Source of the DNA: a virus
Strand: one strand, 5' to 3'
Length of the DNA: 47,110 nt
IMG/VR virus record: IMGVR_UViG_3300018414_000010
Coordinates: 1-47,110 of that record
Below the pieces are notes generated by a model. The model did no database searches and was not told the DNA's origin. It worked only from the letters and a program-made list of their open reading frames with translations. Shown piece after piece: positions 2,277 through 25,646 of the stretch. A program made the translations under genes and the position numbers. Each line of letters starts with the position of its first letter. Position 1 is the stretch's first letter.

Positions 2277-3158
2277 TTACTCCTCGCCACCATCATCACC
2301 CGAAAGTCCGGAAAAATCAACAATCGGACGCATGAAGCATGTGCAGTTGATCAGATCGCCCGGCTTCCCGCGCTGGCCCGTTTTCTCATCGATGACAGGC
2401 GGATTGTCTAAACTGAATATCTGGCCGTTCAAAACGTTGAGGTGCAGGGGCCGCGGTTCCCGGTCACCGTTGGAATGGCACCATTCGTATTTCTGGACTC
2501 CCACAGCCTTCATCCGGCCAGCATTCAGATTATTATAAACCTTGCGGGTCTGGTCCCGGGCAATCAATCGGGCCCGGCGTTCGGTGATTTCTCCGTATTT
2601 GTTCAGGGCCGGGAAAAGGTCCTGCATGCCGTTGCCGGTGGTGATCGACCGCATCACGGCGCCCTGCACCTGGGTCAAATACTGGCTGGGGATAGATTTT
2701 ATCAATCCGACATTTTCAGCAATCGAAGCCTTCATGATTTGTTTCATGGCGGGTGTGATCGATGTCGTTTTCAAGGATAGCCCGCCTGATAATTCCTTGA
2801 GGCTGCCGTGAAGCGCGCCGGAACTGGCTCGATCATTCTCATCCACCATTCGGCTGGCGAGGCCCTGGGCTTTGGTATCGAACAATTGCTGAAAACGTTT
2901 CATCAGGGAATTCATCAGCAAGTTCGCCTGTGGTGAGATATTAGCATCCATGGCGAAAAACTTCTTGGCATGCGCAGTATCGAACAAAGCCCCGATTTCC
3001 TTCTCGACTGTCTTGCGCATGGTCCGGATCAGGGAATCAAGACGTTTCTGATAATTATCCTGTACGCCGACATTGGGCCGGAGGGGCTTGCCGCGAATGA
3101 TGGCCTTACGGGATTTCGCCCATTTAGCTCGCTTGTGCGTTAGAACCTTCTTCGGCAT
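2277..3158 (-). CDS. Head morphogenesis protein (phage Mu F / SPP1 gp7-like)
   Basis: About 293 residues. The C-terminal ~110 residues carry the Mu F-like minor head protein signature: RARLIARDQTRKVYNN, then EWCHSNGDREPRPLH and a terminal GDLINCTCFMRPI. This family enters the procapsid with the portal and is needed for head assembly or DNA ejection. It follows the portal gene as usual, and its start at 3158 (MPKKVLTHKR) lies inside the portal's 3' end, about 35 bases of overlap in another frame. An upstream in-frame ATG at 3254 would lengthen the overlap to 131 bases and adds a low-complexity basic leader, so I disfavour it. Confidence 0.85.
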   Translation of the reverse strand: MPKKVLTHKRAKWAKSRKAIIRGKPLRPNVGVQDNYQKRLDSLIRTMRKTVEKEIGALFDTAHAKKFFAMDANISPQANLLMNSLMKRFQQLFDTKAQGLASRMVDENDRASSGALHGSLKELSGGLSLKTTSITPAMKQIMKASIAENVGLIKSIPSQYLTQVQGAVMRSITTGNGMQDLFPALNKYGEITERRARLIARDQTRKVYNNLNAGRMKAVGVQKYEWCHSNGDREPRPLHLNVLNGQIFSLDNPPVIDEKTGQRGKPGDLINCTCFMRPIVDFSGLSGDDGGEE

Positions 3159-4647
3159 TGGCAGGATCATCCAGGTTTGCGTTGGGGTCAATTTCTTCCT
3201 CATCGGGAAGTTCATCGGCGGGGAATTCTTCCGGGATGGCTTGATATCCGACATTCGGATTTGACCTGATCCGCTCCCTGACTTCGCTCGGCGCTATTGC
3301 ACCGGCTTCTAGCCAGATCTGATCGGCCTGCGCATCTTGGTAATTGATGGCGGATTGATCTTTAGCATTCGGGCTGGAAATGGGATTCCATTCGATATCA
3401 GTCGGCGTCGATGATTCAAGTTCTGATTTCAAAACCAATAGATGGTGGCGATTAACCAAAGGCGTGATCTTTTGCTGAACGGTGTCAAGTTCCTCACGAT
3501 AGGATTCTTGTTCGTAATCGCCGGTGGCGTTGAATCCCTTTGGCGAGGTACCCAGAAGCTTTACTCCGGGCAGGTCAGCGATGGCGGCGCAAATCTGGTA
3601 CTGAGTCATGATGACGGTATCAACATCGGCCAGAGAGGTGTCGGTTTGATTGACCTCCTCATCTTCGCCCAAGAGTTTTACACCGAAATTGTTCATGAAG
3701 CGTGACCAGATGCTGATCTTCTCTTCGACATCGGCTTGGTTAGCTATCCCTGCCGACATGTTCATCTTCATTGTGATCAGGCGCTTGGTCATCGCCAGCA
3801 TCGGAGCTTCGTTCGCTGTCCGTTCGGCGGCATAAACGCGCTCATAAATCTTCTGCGGAACTGAGACGCCACCATACATGTAGGTCGGCTTCAGGATGTC
3901 TGCCACTTCTTCGCCGCGATAGATGATGAAATGTGATTTGTGGTATCGCTTCCCGTTAATGATCCAGAACGTAGGCTCATAGAAATCGAGGTTGGCTGGA
4001 TCGGATATCGCGCTGCCTATCATCTCCGGGGAAATCCATGTAGGATCGATCTGGCTGATTCCCTTGTATTGCCCCTTTTTGATGCCATCAATGTTGAAAG
4101 GGCGTTCATAATATTTTGGATCGCCGGTTTCGACGACGAACAGGGCATGCCTGATGCCGAAGACGCGGCCCATTTTCACGAATTCTATGCATGAATCCTT
4201 TAGACCCATCTTCTTGTCGATCGTCTTCATCTTGTCAACGAGGTCTGTATTGTCGCCGGACCCTTCCGTTACAACGATGTCGAACCAAGTCCGGACCGCA
4301 TCGCGCGCAGGCATGGCGCAAACCTTGTTTACCAGCCAGTGCTGGGCAATGATGGCGCAAAGCGGGAAGCCGATGAAACCTTGTGAGGCATACCATTCGA
4401 GCTGGGCATCAGGGATCTGGCCACGGGAAACGCCGAGTTTAGGGAATGGCTGCCCGTTGTTACCGCTATCATCCATGGCCACGCCTACAGGACGGGGCAG
4501 TTCCTTTTGGAATGTTTTAGCCAAAGCTGTCTGGATGCGGGTTCCGTCACGGGATTTACCCTGCATGAACAGGTCGGTGTTGAAAATGCTGAACCCAGGC
4601 TCTTTCGCTTCAGGGGCCTTAACTTCCTTTTTAGACCAAAAACCCAT
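3124..4647 (-). CDS. Portal protein (DUF1073)
   Basis: A 507-residue portal subunit. The signature segment around residues 85-125 (EWYASQGFIGFPLCAIIAQH, then WLVNKVCAMPARDAVRTW) and the later KRYHKSHFIIYRGEEV and KLLGTSPKGFNATGDYE segments match the DUF1073 phage portal family. It forms the dodecameric DNA gate at the head vertex and docks terminase. It sits between terminase large subunit and the Mu F-like protein, the canonical order. The C-terminal ~40 residues are acidic and probably flexible. Confidence 0.92.
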   Translation of the reverse strand: MGFWSKKEVKAPEAKEPGFSIFNTDLFMQGKSRDGTRIQTALAKTFQKELPRPVGVAMDDSGNNGQPFPKLGVSRGQIPDAQLEWYASQGFIGFPLCAIIAQHWLVNKVCAMPARDAVRTWFDIVVTEGSGDNTDLVDKMKTIDKKMGLKDSCIEFVKMGRVFGIRHALFVVETGDPKYYERPFNIDGIKKGQYKGISQIDPTWISPEMIGSAISDPANLDFYEPTFWIINGKRYHKSHFIIYRGEEVADILKPTYMYGGVSVPQKIYERVYAAERTANEAPMLAMTKRLITMKMNMSAGIANQADVEEKISIWSRFMNNFGVKLLGEDEEVNQTDTSLADVDTVIMTQYQICAAIADLPGVKLLGTSPKGFNATGDYEQESYREELDTVQQKITPLVNRHHLLVLKSELESSTPTDIEWNPISSPNAKDQSAINYQDAQADQIWLEAGAIAPSEVRERIRSNPNVGYQAIPEEFPADELPDEEEIDPNANLDDPANAEEGSNAQAS

Positions 4648-4658
4648 TCTTTGCTCCC

Positions 4659-5957
4659 TTACTTTTTGCCGAGGATGTCCAAAATGGATTTGCCTCTGGA
4701 TTTTATGTATTTAGACAGCGCATACCGAACCGCGTCCCAGCCGTGATTGAATTTGTCCACGATATCCGTGGTGATGTCCTTGGTGAGTTTATCAATTTTG
4801 TAGCTGTATAGTCTAGCCTCTTCCTGCATCTCAGTGCAGCGGGTATGAATAACAATCTCGACAAACGATTTAAGAACCGCAATCCCATCTTCCACGCTGC
4901 CCGGCCATTTCTCCGCACCGACGATGTTATATCCTTTGTGTTTGATGTGACTGATTGTCTCCGGGCGGGAGCAATCGGCATAGATTTTATGGCTCTTGCT
5001 GTCGGGCACGGTGTCATAGAACCGAGGGATATCATCTAATTCCACGCCCTGCTCGAAGGCCGCATATTCGATGAAAAGGCGTCGAGATGCCTTCCGGTCA
5101 TCGCCGGAGACGTGGGGTATTTCCTCAACCCAGCACTTGACCAAGGTATTCGGGTCTTGCGAAAAACCCCAGTCTGCGCCGAAATAGGGACCATGCCATT
5201 CAGGTTTAGGATCAAATGTCTGAACGCTATACTTTCCTGAAAAGATGATTGACTCATGGAGTCCGACAGCGATACCGAGATATTCGTGCTCATAGGCAAG
5301 GATATTATTTTCGCGGAGCCATTCTGCGTCCTCAATAAACTTTTCGCCAAGCCACTCGCGGGGAACATCCTGATAGGTTGAATGATGGACATGACGTCCA
5401 GGTTTAGCGACAAGGCTTTCCTTGTTGACCCATGCTTGCGGGTCATTCGGAGGGTTATAGGTTATGAACTGAATAAACTTCTCACCGCCGCGCAAGACCG
5501 ACTGCTGGACAGAGCGTATCTCGTTCATGCCATTGAATTCTTCGGCCTCCTCAAACCAAAGAAATTTGAAATAACCTTTTTTAAGTTTGAGAGATTTAAC
5601 CTTGAGAGCTTTATCGAGGCCTTTGAGCAGGATTTTCTGGCCGGTCGGCTTGTAGGTAATTTCTGCCGGGCTAGTTGTGACTTTGAACAGATGGGATACA
5701 TTCAGCATCTCCATAGCCCATTCGAAGTTCCCAAGGATCGATGTCCTTAAGGTTTCTCCGACTTTCCTGAACCCGATTGCATTGGCATCGGGATCGGACA
5801 TGATGCCGAGGAGAATTTCAATAGCGGCGAAGGATGATTTAGTGGAGCCCCGGCCACCTTTCAGCCAGAACTCCGAGGCCTCGTAAGCCTTAATCTTTTT
5901 ATGGATTGGGATAAATGCCGGTGCGATCAGGTTGGAAAGACGAACCTGGATTTGCAT
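4659..5957 (-). CDS. terL: Terminase large subunit (PBSX/XtmB type)
   Basis: A 432-residue packaging motor ATPase-nuclease. Walker A is GGRGSTKS at about residues 34-41, Walker B with catalytic acids is FLWFEEAEEF at about 133-142, and a coupling-type motif FITYNPPND follows near 165. The nuclease half contains GADWGFSQDP (about 261-270), IYADCSRPET (about 327) and a terminal NHGWDAVRYAL, the acidic positions expected for the RNase H-like metal site. Length is typical of the PBSX/Terminase_3 family. Start at 5957 immediately follows the stop of the small-subunit candidate. Confidence 0.95.
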   Translation of the reverse strand: MQIQVRLSNLIAPAFIPIHKKIKAYEASEFWLKGGRGSTKSSFAAIEILLGIMSDPDANAIGFRKVGETLRTSILGNFEWAMEMLNVSHLFKVTTSPAEITYKPTGQKILLKGLDKALKVKSLKLKKGYFKFLWFEEAEEFNGMNEIRSVQQSVLRGGEKFIQFITYNPPNDPQAWVNKESLVAKPGRHVHHSTYQDVPREWLGEKFIEDAEWLRENNILAYEHEYLGIAVGLHESIIFSGKYSVQTFDPKPEWHGPYFGADWGFSQDPNTLVKCWVEEIPHVSGDDRKASRRLFIEYAAFEQGVELDDIPRFYDTVPDSKSHKIYADCSRPETISHIKHKGYNIVGAEKWPGSVEDGIAVLKSFVEIVIHTRCTEMQEEARLYSYKIDKLTKDITTDIVDKFNHGWDAVRYALSKYIKSRGKSILDILGKK

Positions 5958-6359
5958 CTATTTTAAATCATCAACGATCTGAACGAGCAGGGCCGATCCG
6001 TCGGCGCCGGTCAATTCTGTTTTATCGGCAAGTTTGCCGTACATGTCGTCCTTGATCATCTTTAACGCCTCAACATTACCGCTCAGACCTTTTTTAATCA
6101 GAGCCATCTCTAAGGCTTCGGCAACGGTAATCGGTCTGCCATCAATTCCAAACGGTTGTGCGCGCGTCTTTCCGTCATCGGTTTTAAAAGTTGCCTCAAG
6201 GTAACGCTTCAGTATCGTGCTGCGGTTTAATGTTCCTGGGGCCTTCCCTTTAGGATTTCCGCTCTGGCCCTTGACCCAATCTTTTTTCCCCTTCTTGAGA
6301 TTATCAAGCTGGGCCTGAGTCATTCTCTTTTTCGGTTTCTTAGGCGGTTCGTCTGTCAT
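5958..6359 (-). CDS. terS: DUF5681 protein, probable small terminase
   Basis: A 133-residue, Lys-rich protein with the DUF5681 signature KGQSGNPKGKAPGT near residue 30, followed by a helical domain. DUF5681 proteins commonly lie directly upstream of the large terminase in phages and prophages, where they are the best candidate for the DNA-recognition subunit. The start overlaps the methyltransferase stop as ATGA, and the stop abuts terL. The small-subunit role is inferred from position, not from a recognised DNA-binding motif. Confidence 0.7.
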   Translation of the reverse strand: MTDEPPKKPKKRMTQAQLDNLKKGKKDWVKGQSGNPKGKAPGTLNRSTILKRYLEATFKTDDGKTRAQPFGIDGRPITVAEALEMALIKKGLSGNVEALKMIKDDMYGKLADKTELTGADGSALLVQIVDDLK

Positions 6360-7609
6360 TCGATCACCTTATCGCCGTTTTCGTGGACGGCCTTCTTGCC
6401 AGTCATGTTCTGCCAACGCTTGACGATGATGTCGCAGTAAACGGGATTGAGTTCTGAACCATAGCAGACGCGGGCCTCGGTCTCTGCGGCGATCAGGGTT
6501 GTTCCGCTACCTAGGAACGGATCATAAACGATGTCCCCCGGCTTGGAATTGTTCATCATCGGGCGGCGCATGCACTCGACTGGCTTTTGCGTGCTATGGC
6601 CGGTTTCTGATTTCTGGGGTTTGTCGATATTCCAGATTGATGTTTCCTTGCGCGAACCATTCCAATGCCCTGTCGCGCCTTTTTTGACCGCATACCAGCA
6701 AGGCTCGTGCTGCCAGTGGTAATCGCCGCGACCAATGGCAAACACGTTCTTTGCCCAGATGATTTGGCATCGCCGCATGAATCCGGCCTGCTCAAGAGAT
6801 TGAATAACGACATCGTTAAACATCGAGGCACACCAGACGTAGGCAACATCGCATGGGGACAATTCCCAAGCCTCTGTCCAGTCCGCCCGGTCGTCATTCA
6901 TGACCTTACCGACGGCACGGGCAGAAACGATCGATCCGTCCGCGCGTTTAATTCCATTGCGGAAATTTGCGTCATACTCAACCCCATAAGGCGGGTCCGT
7001 AACCATCAGGTGCGGCTTTGCGCCCGCCAGCAGGGCCTTGACGCCTTCGGGGTCGCAACTGTCACCACAGCGCAGGCGGTGCTTGCCCATAACCCAGATG
7101 TCGCCCAGCGCGGTAACGGGCACGGCGGGCGCGTCCGGAATATCGTTCTCGGGAGTGTTCTCGACATGGTCATGGGTGAAATCGGCAATTTCCGAACCAT
7201 CGAACCCGGTCAGGTCCATGTCAAAATCGAGGCTGGCCAGTTCTTTCAGTTCGATGCGCAGGATATCTTCGTCATACCCAGCATCCTGCGGGATGCGGTT
7301 ATCAGCCAGCATATACGCCCGCTGCTGGGCCTCAGTGAGATGGTCAGCCATGACGCAAGGCACCTCGTCCAAACCCAATTGCAGGGCCGCCTGCAGCCTG
7401 CCGTGCCCGGCCAGGATCTTTCCTTTGCCGTCGATGATGACCGGATTGATGAACCCAAAAGCCTTGATCGCCTTGGCCAGCTTGTCGATTTGGGATTTGC
7501 CGTGAGTTCGTGCATTGCGGGGATTTGCCGTGAGTTCGTGGACAGAACGCAGGGCATAAGGAATTTCCGCTGAAGTTTCCGCTACATTATTGGAAAATGA
7601 TTTGTTCAT
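6356..7609 (-). CDS. ParB-domain / DNA methyltransferase fusion
   Basis: A 417-residue two-domain protein. Residues ~20-110 are a ParB/sulfiredoxin-type nuclease-like domain (FGFINPVIID, GHGRLQAA). Residues ~165-400 are a beta-type N6-adenine or N4-cytosine methyltransferase with DPPYG at about 205, HSTQKPVE at about 338 and DPFLGSGTT at about 363. Such orphan methyltransferases modify phage DNA against host restriction or tune packaging and transcription. The ParB domain is not evidence of plasmid partition. The ATG at 7609 has no recognisable ribosome site. A promoter with TATAAT five bases upstream of the ATG suggests leaderless expression. The gene ends overlapping the terS candidate by four bases. 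Confidence 0.9.
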   Translation of the reverse strand: MNKSFSNNVAETSAEIPYALRSVHELTANPRNARTHGKSQIDKLAKAIKAFGFINPVIIDGKGKILAGHGRLQAALQLGLDEVPCVMADHLTEAQQRAYMLADNRIPQDAGYDEDILRIELKELASLDFDMDLTGFDGSEIADFTHDHVENTPENDIPDAPAVPVTALGDIWVMGKHRLRCGDSCDPEGVKALLAGAKPHLMVTDPPYGVEYDANFRNGIKRADGSIVSARAVGKVMNDDRADWTEAWELSPCDVAYVWCASMFNDVVIQSLEQAGFMRRCQIIWAKNVFAIGRGDYHWQHEPCWYAVKKGATGHWNGSRKETSIWNIDKPQKSETGHSTQKPVECMRRPMMNNSKPGDIVYDPFLGSGTTLIAAETEARVCYGSELNPVYCDIIVKRWQNMTGKKAVHENGDKVIE

Positions 7610-16207: not shown

Positions 16208-16470
16208 CTGAAAAATATCGCCCATCAAACGGATCAGAAGGCGAATGGTTCATGGATAAATTCTGCCATCAATGCGCTAGGTCAAATCTTGAAGACGAGA
16301 GCAAGGTTCCGTGCGGCATCCTGGGCTTGATGCTGGGTCTCAGTGAAGACCATAAGGATTATCCTAAAGAGCTGATCGAGGATGAAAATGGGCCGCGCTG
16401 TACGGCGTTTATTCCTGAAGGCGACCCTATACCGGAACAACGTTGTGAATTGACCAGAGAATTATTTTAA
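16204..16470 (+). CDS. Conserved phage protein (YRPSNGSEGEWFMDKFC)
   Basis: An 88-residue protein with YRPSNGSEGEWFMDKFCHQC near the N-terminus, a segment I recognise from small uncharacterised proteins of phages and prophages. Two cysteine pairs (CHQC and later CGI/CTAF) may bind a metal. Function unknown. It is the last coupled gene of the cluster. Confidence 0.65.
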   Translation: MTEKYRPSNGSEGEWFMDKFCHQCARSNLEDESKVPCGILGLMLGLSEDHKDYPKELIEDENGPRCTAFIPEGDPIPEQRCELTRELF

Positions 16471-16512
16471 AATCCCTGCTAAACTGGACCATCAACAACA
16501 GGAGTTTTAAAA

Positions 16513-16689
16513 ATGGGTTTAGTGGTTCTTGCATACGTCCTTCTGGGCGGTCTGTCGATCAACGGGTATAATGCCGCGCAGGCTGGCCATCCGGTCGAGA
16601 GCGTGGGCGATTTCAAGCACGCCGTTGTCGCGGAATACTATGTCATTAAGGCGCGCCCGGGTTTCGTGTCTTATAAACTGAATGATTAG
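16513..16689 (+). CDS. Small protein with hydrophobic N-terminus (58 aa)
   Basis: A 58-residue frame with CAGGAG before its ATG. The first ~20 residues (MGLVVLAYVLLGGLSINGYN) are hydrophobic and would act as a membrane anchor or weak signal peptide. The rest is polar. It ends seven bases before the tRNA-like gene and could be co-transcribed with it. Confidence 0.55.
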   Translation: MGLVVLAYVLLGGLSINGYNAAQAGHPVESVGDFKHAVVAEYYVIKARPGFVSYKLND

Positions 16690-16695
16690 AATTCG

Positions 16696-16831
16696 TGATG
16701 GGTGGCGGAACTGGTATACGCTGCGTGGTTAAAAGCCTGCCTTAGCTGCTTCCTGAATTAACAGGGGGTGCTGTAGAAGAGAACTACGGTGGGATGGAAG
16801 ATCCCTTGAGGGTTCGAATCCCTCTCCATCA
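16696..16831 (+). tRNA. tRNA-Leu-like gene with ~48-base insertion in the anticodon loop
   Basis: Acceptor stem TGATGGG/TCCATCA (16696-16702, 16825-16831), a Leu-type D arm GCG-GAACTGGTATA-CGC (16705-16721), a class II variable arm GGGAT-GGAAG-ATCCC (16791-16805) and a perfect T arm GAGGG-TTCGAAT-CCCTC (16808-16824) are all present. CGTGG (16724-16728) can pair with CTACG (16784-16788) as an anticodon stem, but the loop between them is 55 bases, not 7. The loop holds a 9-base hairpin (16747-16755 with 16762-16770). Some 48-base excisions would leave a Leu anticodon (GAG or AAG). No CCA is encoded and base 73 is T, where leucine tRNAs usually have A. It may be an intron-bearing tRNA, a decayed tRNA or a tRNA mimic. 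Confidence 0.6.
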
Positions 16832-16839
16832 TGAAAACG

Positions 16840-16873
16840 AAAAGGCCGCCCCAGCAATGGAAGGCGGCCTTTT
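16840..16873. terminator. Bidirectional rho-independent terminator
   Basis: AAAAGGCCGCC (16840-16850) and GGCGGCCTTTT (16863-16873) form an 11-base stem flanked by A and T runs. It separates the rightward unit ending in the tRNA-like gene from the leftward unit ending in the cold-shock gene. Confidence 0.9.
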
Positions 16874-16889
16874 CTATCCCCGAGGGGAA

Positions 16890-17102
16890 TTACTGAAGTT
16901 CGACGTCAACGGCACCAGTCTTGCCGTTCTTTGTTTCCAGCGCGTAGGTGACTTTCTGGCCTTCGACAAGACCATTTAGGCTGGCATGCGCCAAGGCTGA
17001 TTTGTGGACAAACACGTCTGTACCACCGGCATCAGGCAGCAGGAAGCCAAACCCCTTATCGACCGCATACCATTTTACGATTCCTGTATAACGTTCACTC
17101 AT
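16890..17102 (-). CDS. Cold-shock domain protein
   Basis: A 70-residue single-domain cold-shock protein. It has the RNP-1-like GFGFLLP (usually KGFGFI) and RNP-2-like VFVHKSAL segments and the opening GIVKWYAVDKGFGF. These proteins bind single-stranded RNA/DNA and melt mRNA structures. ATG 17102 is chosen because the domain starts there and AGGAAG lies upstream. Its first eight bases overlap the previous gene. Phage copies may aid late translation or antitermination; that is inference. Confidence 0.92.
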   Translation of the reverse strand: MSERYTGIVKWYAVDKGFGFLLPDAGGTDVFVHKSALAHASLNGLVEGQKVTYALETKNGKTGAVDVELQ

Positions 17103-24712: not shown

Positions 24713-24996
24713 TGCTTAAAATCTCAGCAGCTTACAAGGTCGTTTTATCTGGTCTTAGTGAACATAGCTTTGGTTGTGGCACATTCAAAAGAACAGTTTG
24801 GCATGCACTTGTCCTCGAAGATTATGGAGATGGTAGATTCAAAAGAAAGCGATCTGATTTTCTGTGTTCTCCAAAATCAAGGCCATTTGATACAGGCTTT
24901 AAAAGCGGCAAAGATATTAACCCAAAAATAAACTGCAAATCTTGCCAGCGTATTCTAGAGAAACGAGCTTTTGAACGTGAGGATTCATTGTCATGA
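24712..24996 (+). CDS. Small basic zinc-knuckle protein (94 aa)
   Basis: A 94-residue basic protein ending in INCKSCQRIL, with a second cysteine pair upstream (FGCG, FLCSP) that might complete a metal site. ATG 24712 has GGGAGAGG upstream; GTG 24709 is an alternative. It overlaps the next gene by four bases. Confidence 0.5.
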   Translation: MLKISAAYKVVLSGLSEHSFGCGTFKRTVWHALVLEDYGDGRFKRKRSDFLCSPKSRPFDTGFKSGKDINPKINCKSCQRILEKRAFEREDSLS

Positions 24997-25646
24997 CCGA
25001 CACCACGAAACGCGAGGCGGAAGCCGAACTGAAGAACTGTCCGTTTTGCAAAAGTGCGGCACAAATACAATCTTATAATCCGCCGCGAATTCACTGCAAA
25101 AAACCGTTATGCCGTGGCCATATTGATATGGGCGATTGGGGTAATATGAAGGACGCCATTGCAGCATGGAACACCCGCGCCAGTCTCGCAACGCCAGCCG
25201 TGCCGGATGAGAAGCCAGAGCCGGAATTAGACTGGATCACCTCCATGAAAATAACCAGTCCCGGTTTTTTCAACCCTAAAATTGAGAAGAAAGACCAAAA
25301 AGCTGAAATCGAAAGCAGGCTCGAAATTCTGACAGAGCCGGACAGTATCCCAGCCGTAAATAAAGCCATGCTCACTATGTGGCAACGCATGGATCAAATT
25401 GACGGTGAGATTGCTTGCAAAGATTGCAAAACGATTAAATCCTTAAACATTAGAGAAATCGTTCACGAGGCGATGCAAGAAGGTTGGGATGATATTGGTG
25501 GCGATACTGGATGCCATCCATTGGATATTACACGCAACGGAAAATATCTTTCATTCCGTCCGTATCATTGGGCTGATTACATCGCGGGATTTATCGAACA
25601 GAAGTTGCTATCAGCAGCGCCTAAACAAAACGATCAGGGGGAGTAG
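24993..25646 (+). CDS. Lar-like restriction alleviation protein with extension
   Basis: A 217-residue protein. Its first ~65 residues fit the Lar/Lar_restr_allev pattern: LKNCPFCKSAAQI, then IHCKKPLCRGH and DAIAAWNTRA. This is a small zinc-ribbon domain whose Rac prophage member reduces EcoKI restriction. The remaining ~150 residues are not part of Lar and end in a helical segment (EIVHEAMQEGWDDIGGDTGC ...). It lies in the early accessory cluster and may cooperate with the phage's own methyltransferases. Anti-restriction activity is inferred from the domain only. Confidence 0.7.
   Translation: MTDTTKREAEAELKNCPFCKSAAQIQSYNPPRIHCKKPLCRGHIDMGDWGNMKDAIAAWNTRASLATPAVPDEKPEPELDWITSMKITSPGFFNPKIEKKDQKAEIESRLEILTEPDSIPAVNKAMLTMWQRMDQIDGEIACKDCKTIKSLNIREIVHEAMQEGWDDIGGDTGCHPLDITRNGKYLSFRPYHWADYIAGFIEQKLLSAAPKQNDQGE

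Follow-up and report, generated by a model that had tools for sequence, protein, structure and literature searches.

A tRNA-Leu-like element with an enlarged anticodon arm in a tailed phage, and an apparently undescribed group of viral tRNA-Leu shells

The window analysed here is a whole stretch of viral DNA of 47,110 nucleotides (positions 1 to 47,110 of IMG/VR record IMGVR_UViG_3300018414_000010). The phage is a tailed virus; it has terminase, portal, capsid and tape-measure genes, and its other genes encode RecE/RecT, RusA, a phage-type repressor and a Lar-like restriction alleviation protein (24993–25646; Pfam PF14354); a DNA methyltransferase with a fused ParB-like domain lies at 6356–7609. 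Positions 16696–16831 of the plus strand hold a tRNA-Leu-like element whose parts and immediate neighbors are the following.

16513–16689, plus strand: ORF of 58 aa, its stop 6 nt upstream of the tRNA-like element
16696–16702, plus strand: acceptor stem, 5′ strand TGATGGG, 7/7 pairs with 16825–16831, one of them G-U
16703–16721, plus strand: Leu-type D arm, TGGCGGAACTGGTATACGC, in agreement with the Leu D-arm consensus used in our scans
16724–16730, plus strand: anticodon-position stem, 5′ strand CGTGG(TT), paired with 16782–16788 in the MFE fold of the middle
16729–16783, plus strand: 55-nt anticodon loop including the extra ~48 nt, an insert without homologue among the loci compared
16748–16769, plus strand: hairpin inside the loop, GCTTCCTG-AATTAA-CAGGGGGT, 8 bp by folding
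16763–16769, plus strand: AGGGGGT, possible pseudoknot partner of ATCCCTT at 16801–16807, 7 pairs, two of them G-U
16782–16788, plus strand: anticodon-position stem, 3′ strand (AA)CTACG, paired with 16724–16730
16791–16805, plus strand: class II variable arm, GGGAT-GGAAG-ATCCC, by reading and folding
16808–16824, plus strand: T arm, GAGGG-TTCGAAT-CCCTC, 5/5 pairs, T loop equal to the consensus
16825–16832, plus strand: acceptor stem, 3′ strand TCCATCA, then N73 = T; CCA is not encoded
16839–16874, no strand assigned: terminator-like inverted repeat of 14 bp, rich in GC and bearing T-rich tails, reported on the minus strand by the scan

The first-pass annotation held that the element is probably transcribed, since it precedes a strong terminator. 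The terminator-like repeat is indeed present, and it also folds on the plus strand (−25.9 kcal/mol). No sigma-70-like promoter was found in 16300–17100, so the whole case for transcription is positional: the element begins 6 nt after the stop of an ORF and ends before the repeat.

Direct reading of the sequence recovers all the arms that had been claimed for the element, namely a fully paired 7-bp acceptor stem (7/7), a Leu-type D arm, a class II variable arm and a perfect T arm. The whole element folds below all 200 of its shuffles (z −3.8), and a Leu-type D arm and a T arm at most 160 nt apart occurred as a pair 0 times in 400 simulated windows; that the element is tRNA-derived is, in our judgment, beyond reasonable doubt. 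The middle, between the D and T arms, measures 86 nt and when folded alone forms an irregular anticodon arm of ~65 nt, several times larger than usual, plus the variable arm. Its anticodon stem, CGTGG/CTACG (16724–16728 with 16784–16788, one G-U pair), encloses the 55-base loop at 16729–16783 just as annotated, and a TT/AA extension brings it to 7 bp. Two details of the original description need amending: the loop hairpin, given as 9 bases, has 8 bp by folding (16748–16769) and is part of a longer irregular stem, and the D stem and anticodon stem are separated by two nucleotides rather than one. Against shuffles the middle reaches z −2.9 and the 55-nt loop alone z −1.1. The variable-arm loop GGAAG is the reverse complement of CTTCC (16749–16753), and the pseudoknot pairing AGGGGGT/ATCCCTT competes with local hairpins.

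ARAGORN in its default mode calls no tRNA at the element or elsewhere in the genome, and Rfam, including RF00005, returns no tRNA match for the element even at E ≤ 5. A 7-nt loop with a Leu anticodon is conceivable only after excision of 48 nt; such an excision does give GAG or AAG, as proposed, and the intron mode of ARAGORN reports tRNA-Leu(AAG) with a 48-nt intron at this position. The locus might in that case encode a pre-tRNA-Leu(GAG or AAG) whose anticodon-loop intron is removed by some RNA or protein activity, an explanation that we consider possible but rather unlikely. The anticodon stem and variable arm are both of normal size for it (5 bp each), and excision would leave U33, the Leu anticodon, A37 and A38 in the 7-nt loop; it has to contend with a D-to-anticodon spacing one nucleotide too long, with an anticodon stem that the insert extends through U33 and with the discriminator, which is T73 (T16832) instead of A73. 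The lack of A73 had been reported correctly, and T73 speaks against ordinary leucylation.

Comparison with known systems places the element near several of them. With class II tRNA-Leu it shares the acceptor, Leu D arm, long variable arm, T arm and T loop; it differs in its 55-nt anticodon loop, T73, altered pre-anticodon spacing and lack of an encoded CCA. It resembles tmRNA in that other RNA replaces the anticodon domain of a tRNA-like core, but it retains a D stem, its middle is 86 nt, and the Rfam tmRNA model matches the T arm alone, scoring 10.5 bits where the cut-off is 47. By eye, a tmRNA-like tag frame was noticed in the loop. Cyanobacterial tRNA-Leu(UAA) group I introns are likewise inserted in a tRNA-Leu anticodon loop, but the known ones are ribozymes of about 250 nt; the window insert has 48 nt, against the ~200 nt or more required of a group I intron, and the element has no Rfam group I match. 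Archaeal bulge-helix-bulge tRNA introns are also short inserts in anticodon arms and need an EndA-type splicing endonuclease, whereas the window belongs to a tailed phage whose relatives infect bacteria.

Three cyanobacterial tRNA inserts of 22–49 nt, termed group I introns in a 2017 paper (PMC5733544), are similar to the window insert in size and in anticodon-loop position. Their motifs resemble those of a ~50-nt cyanobacterial and phage insert family, with the shared motif AAAAC...CUU-hairpin-CGA...GGUUAUC, that emerged from our class I control (ordinary-type D arms with long middles) and a scan of bacterial genomes. An insert model of this family, R1, was built from 17 inserts and has 62 matches in the 58 loci searched, a figure that counts these 17; a single Prochloron contig has as many as ten. 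Excision of these inserts restores tRNA-Lys, Phe, Cys, Ala, Thr and others, the unspliced genes being uncalled; in five cyanobacterial contigs ARAGORN finds no tRNA by default and 2–11 each in intron mode. The recurrence of inserts of similar size in other tRNAs, this viral and cyanobacterial family among them, makes a short intron in the window plausible, though the window insert gives no match to R1, lies outside the family and has no homologue among the loci compared, all of which counts against an intron.

RusA identified no relatives of the phage, and RecT together with the portal identified six distant contigs, all without the element; an isolated T-arm-like match (L384) has no Leu-type D arm upstream. 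A bacterial genome search that assumed an alphaproteobacterial host gave distant portal matches only, and an exact 18-mer spanning the D arm and anticodon stem is absent from the viral contigs scanned. A pseudogene—a tRNA-Leu gene of the phage that an insertion has recently disrupted, leaving it functionless—would fit with the failure to detect relatives that carry the locus, with a single copy in a genome that has no other tRNA and with the atypical T73. Every stem is nevertheless intact, the middle folds better than shuffles (at the z values given above for it and for the loop), and intact shells with remodelled middles, described below, are too frequent for accidental breaks, so that we regard a pseudogene as improbable. 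Integration at the 3′ half of a tRNA gene is common among tailed phages, a habit that would suit an attachment site derived from a host tRNA-Leu gene of which the phage had captured a part. The element, however, is full length with neither end missing, and a tyrosine integrase was not detected in the window; we give this origin very little credence.

The window element has the features by which we define a viral tRNA-Leu shell: an intact acceptor, a Leu D arm, a T arm and a long middle. Viral contigs scanned for a Leu D arm and a T arm with a long middle between them contain at least 138 matching stretches, a lower bound on an abundance that is higher still; at least 6/7 acceptor pairs are present in 118 of the 138 listed, with unrelated middles. 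Nearly all middles are unrelated to one another (92 distinct clusters from 109 shells among the matches listed), and their lengths, again among the matches listed, run from 45 to 75 nt without a gap. One shell has a middle of just 20 nt, and a few are too short for an anticodon arm. The gapless lengths and the 20-nt shell show that the middle does not amount to a constant intron added to a tRNA. Excision restores a tRNA in 23/157 Leu shells, where shuffles lead one to expect 8, so most viral Leu shells are not restorable; a one-position shift of its stem keeps the window element out of the 23, and both points weigh against the intron. Of the 40 ordinary Leu tRNAs in these data, 39 have A73. 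So do 84 of 111 long viral shells among the matches listed, which hints that many shells may still be charged with leucine and counts against a non-decoding RNA. In the class I control, 43 of the 122 cases among the matches listed have a paired acceptor, being partly tandem tRNAs and partly short-insert tRNAs; long middles are therefore not confined to Leu. Metagenomic contigs are the source of many shells in the sample, a few of which are in fact tandem tRNAs or artefacts of assembly joining.

Some contigs carry several shells with different middles, at times among ordinary tRNAs. Shells with an AGTCAGG/CCTGACT acceptor and differing middles (gaps of 34–109 nt) occur several per contig in L095 (2700–3860), L137 (4496–7219), L110, L102 and L083, and in L137 some of them alternate with short ORFs. 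The window element is akin to these by architecture only, not by insert homology.

At the population level, T-arm-anchored stems and crossing stems are above shuffles in 182 non-redundant middles, which are therefore structured. The stem preceding the T arm scores 13.5 against 11.9 ± 0.2 in shuffles and crossing stems give z 5.1; no stem anchored at both ends proved common to the middles. Within homologous families, changed pairs are kept in 18/31 cases against 61/169 when slid, a modest effect, and in the homologue pair L391/L460 both sides of the pre-T-arm stem seem, by eye, to have changed. The window element is able to form the crossing arrangement (CGTGGTT/AACTACG with AGGGGGT/ATCCCTT); simple cloverleaf arms are also possible for it, and the local variable-arm hairpin competes with the crossing arrangement. 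We also considered and rejected two other roles. For middles acting as guides or antisense RNAs, words shared with their own contigs were counted and were no more numerous than in controls. For shells acting as 5′ leaders of the next gene, proximity to gene starts was only slightly more frequent than for ordinary tRNAs, and the window element is not so placed.

The annotation had weighed an intron against a tRNA mimic or decoy. The insertion anatomy behind both was right, and T73, the odd spacing and the many shells with unspliceable middles now tip the comparison somewhat toward a non-decoding RNA, the intron keeping the lower likelihood given above. Our best explanation, which we advance tentatively, is a non-decoding tRNA-like RNA in which the tRNA core is kept and the anticodon arm rebuilt, possibly as a decoy for tRNA-binding or tRNA-cutting proteins. 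Such an RNA, phage-encoded and derived from a tRNA-Leu that has lost decoding, would be the last transcribed unit of a small operon, with transcription ending at the following terminator, and would presumably be trimmed like a tRNA by host RNase P and 3′-end enzymes. The tRNA core would then fold normally while the enlarged arm prevents decoding. As the least certain step, this mimic might occupy host proteins that recognize the tRNA core, e.g., tRNA-cutting immune nucleases; the decoy function is one we infer. Two papers provide precedent for conflict over tRNAs: in one, tRNA-Tyr is cut by Septu, and anti-defence loci are amplified in phage T6 (PMC13096335); in the other, tRNA tails are cleaved by Cas12a3 (PMC12851939).

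The viral tRNA-Leu shells with their differing inner parts are apparently an undescribed group of RNAs, possibly host-fooling, and a search of the open-access journal literature returned no description of such a class. A bolder proposal, which we hold to be speculative and on balance doubtful, is that they form a large viral RNA class with a fixed tRNA-Leu core and a hypervariable structured payload, of which a phage keeps one copy or many, and that they act as decoys for host tRNA-recognizing defence proteins. If the class is real, many phages make tRNA-shaped, non-decoding molecules that standard tRNA finders miss, with implications for the reasons why phages carry tRNAs and for the ways in which they cope with tRNA-cutting immunity. 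The combination of hypervariable middles with conserved acceptor and T arms could be the product of an arms race in which the tRNA's lower half is contested.

Several observations concern the short inserts themselves. The ~50-nt family occurs in most or all tRNA genes of cyanobacterial arrays (Prochloron, Nostoc and Pseudanabaena; L326 at 2501–5698, L278, L331, L293 and L275), where it has the appearance of a family of short tRNA introns not described before, and it is also found in phage tRNA genes of several isotypes (L236, L243, L204, L186, L170 and L164). Related short inserts may represent a type of tRNA intron so far unrecognized in bacteria. A second recurrent insert, of ~45 nt at position ~29/30, consists of a hairpin followed by ACAGCAA or ACTGCAA and was found in L238, L244, L258, L160, L166, L182, L194, L202, L227 and L334 (Lachnospiraceae). 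In L222 (455–557) and L368, a mini tRNA-like element made of an acceptor-like stem and a T arm lies within the anticodon loop of another tRNA.
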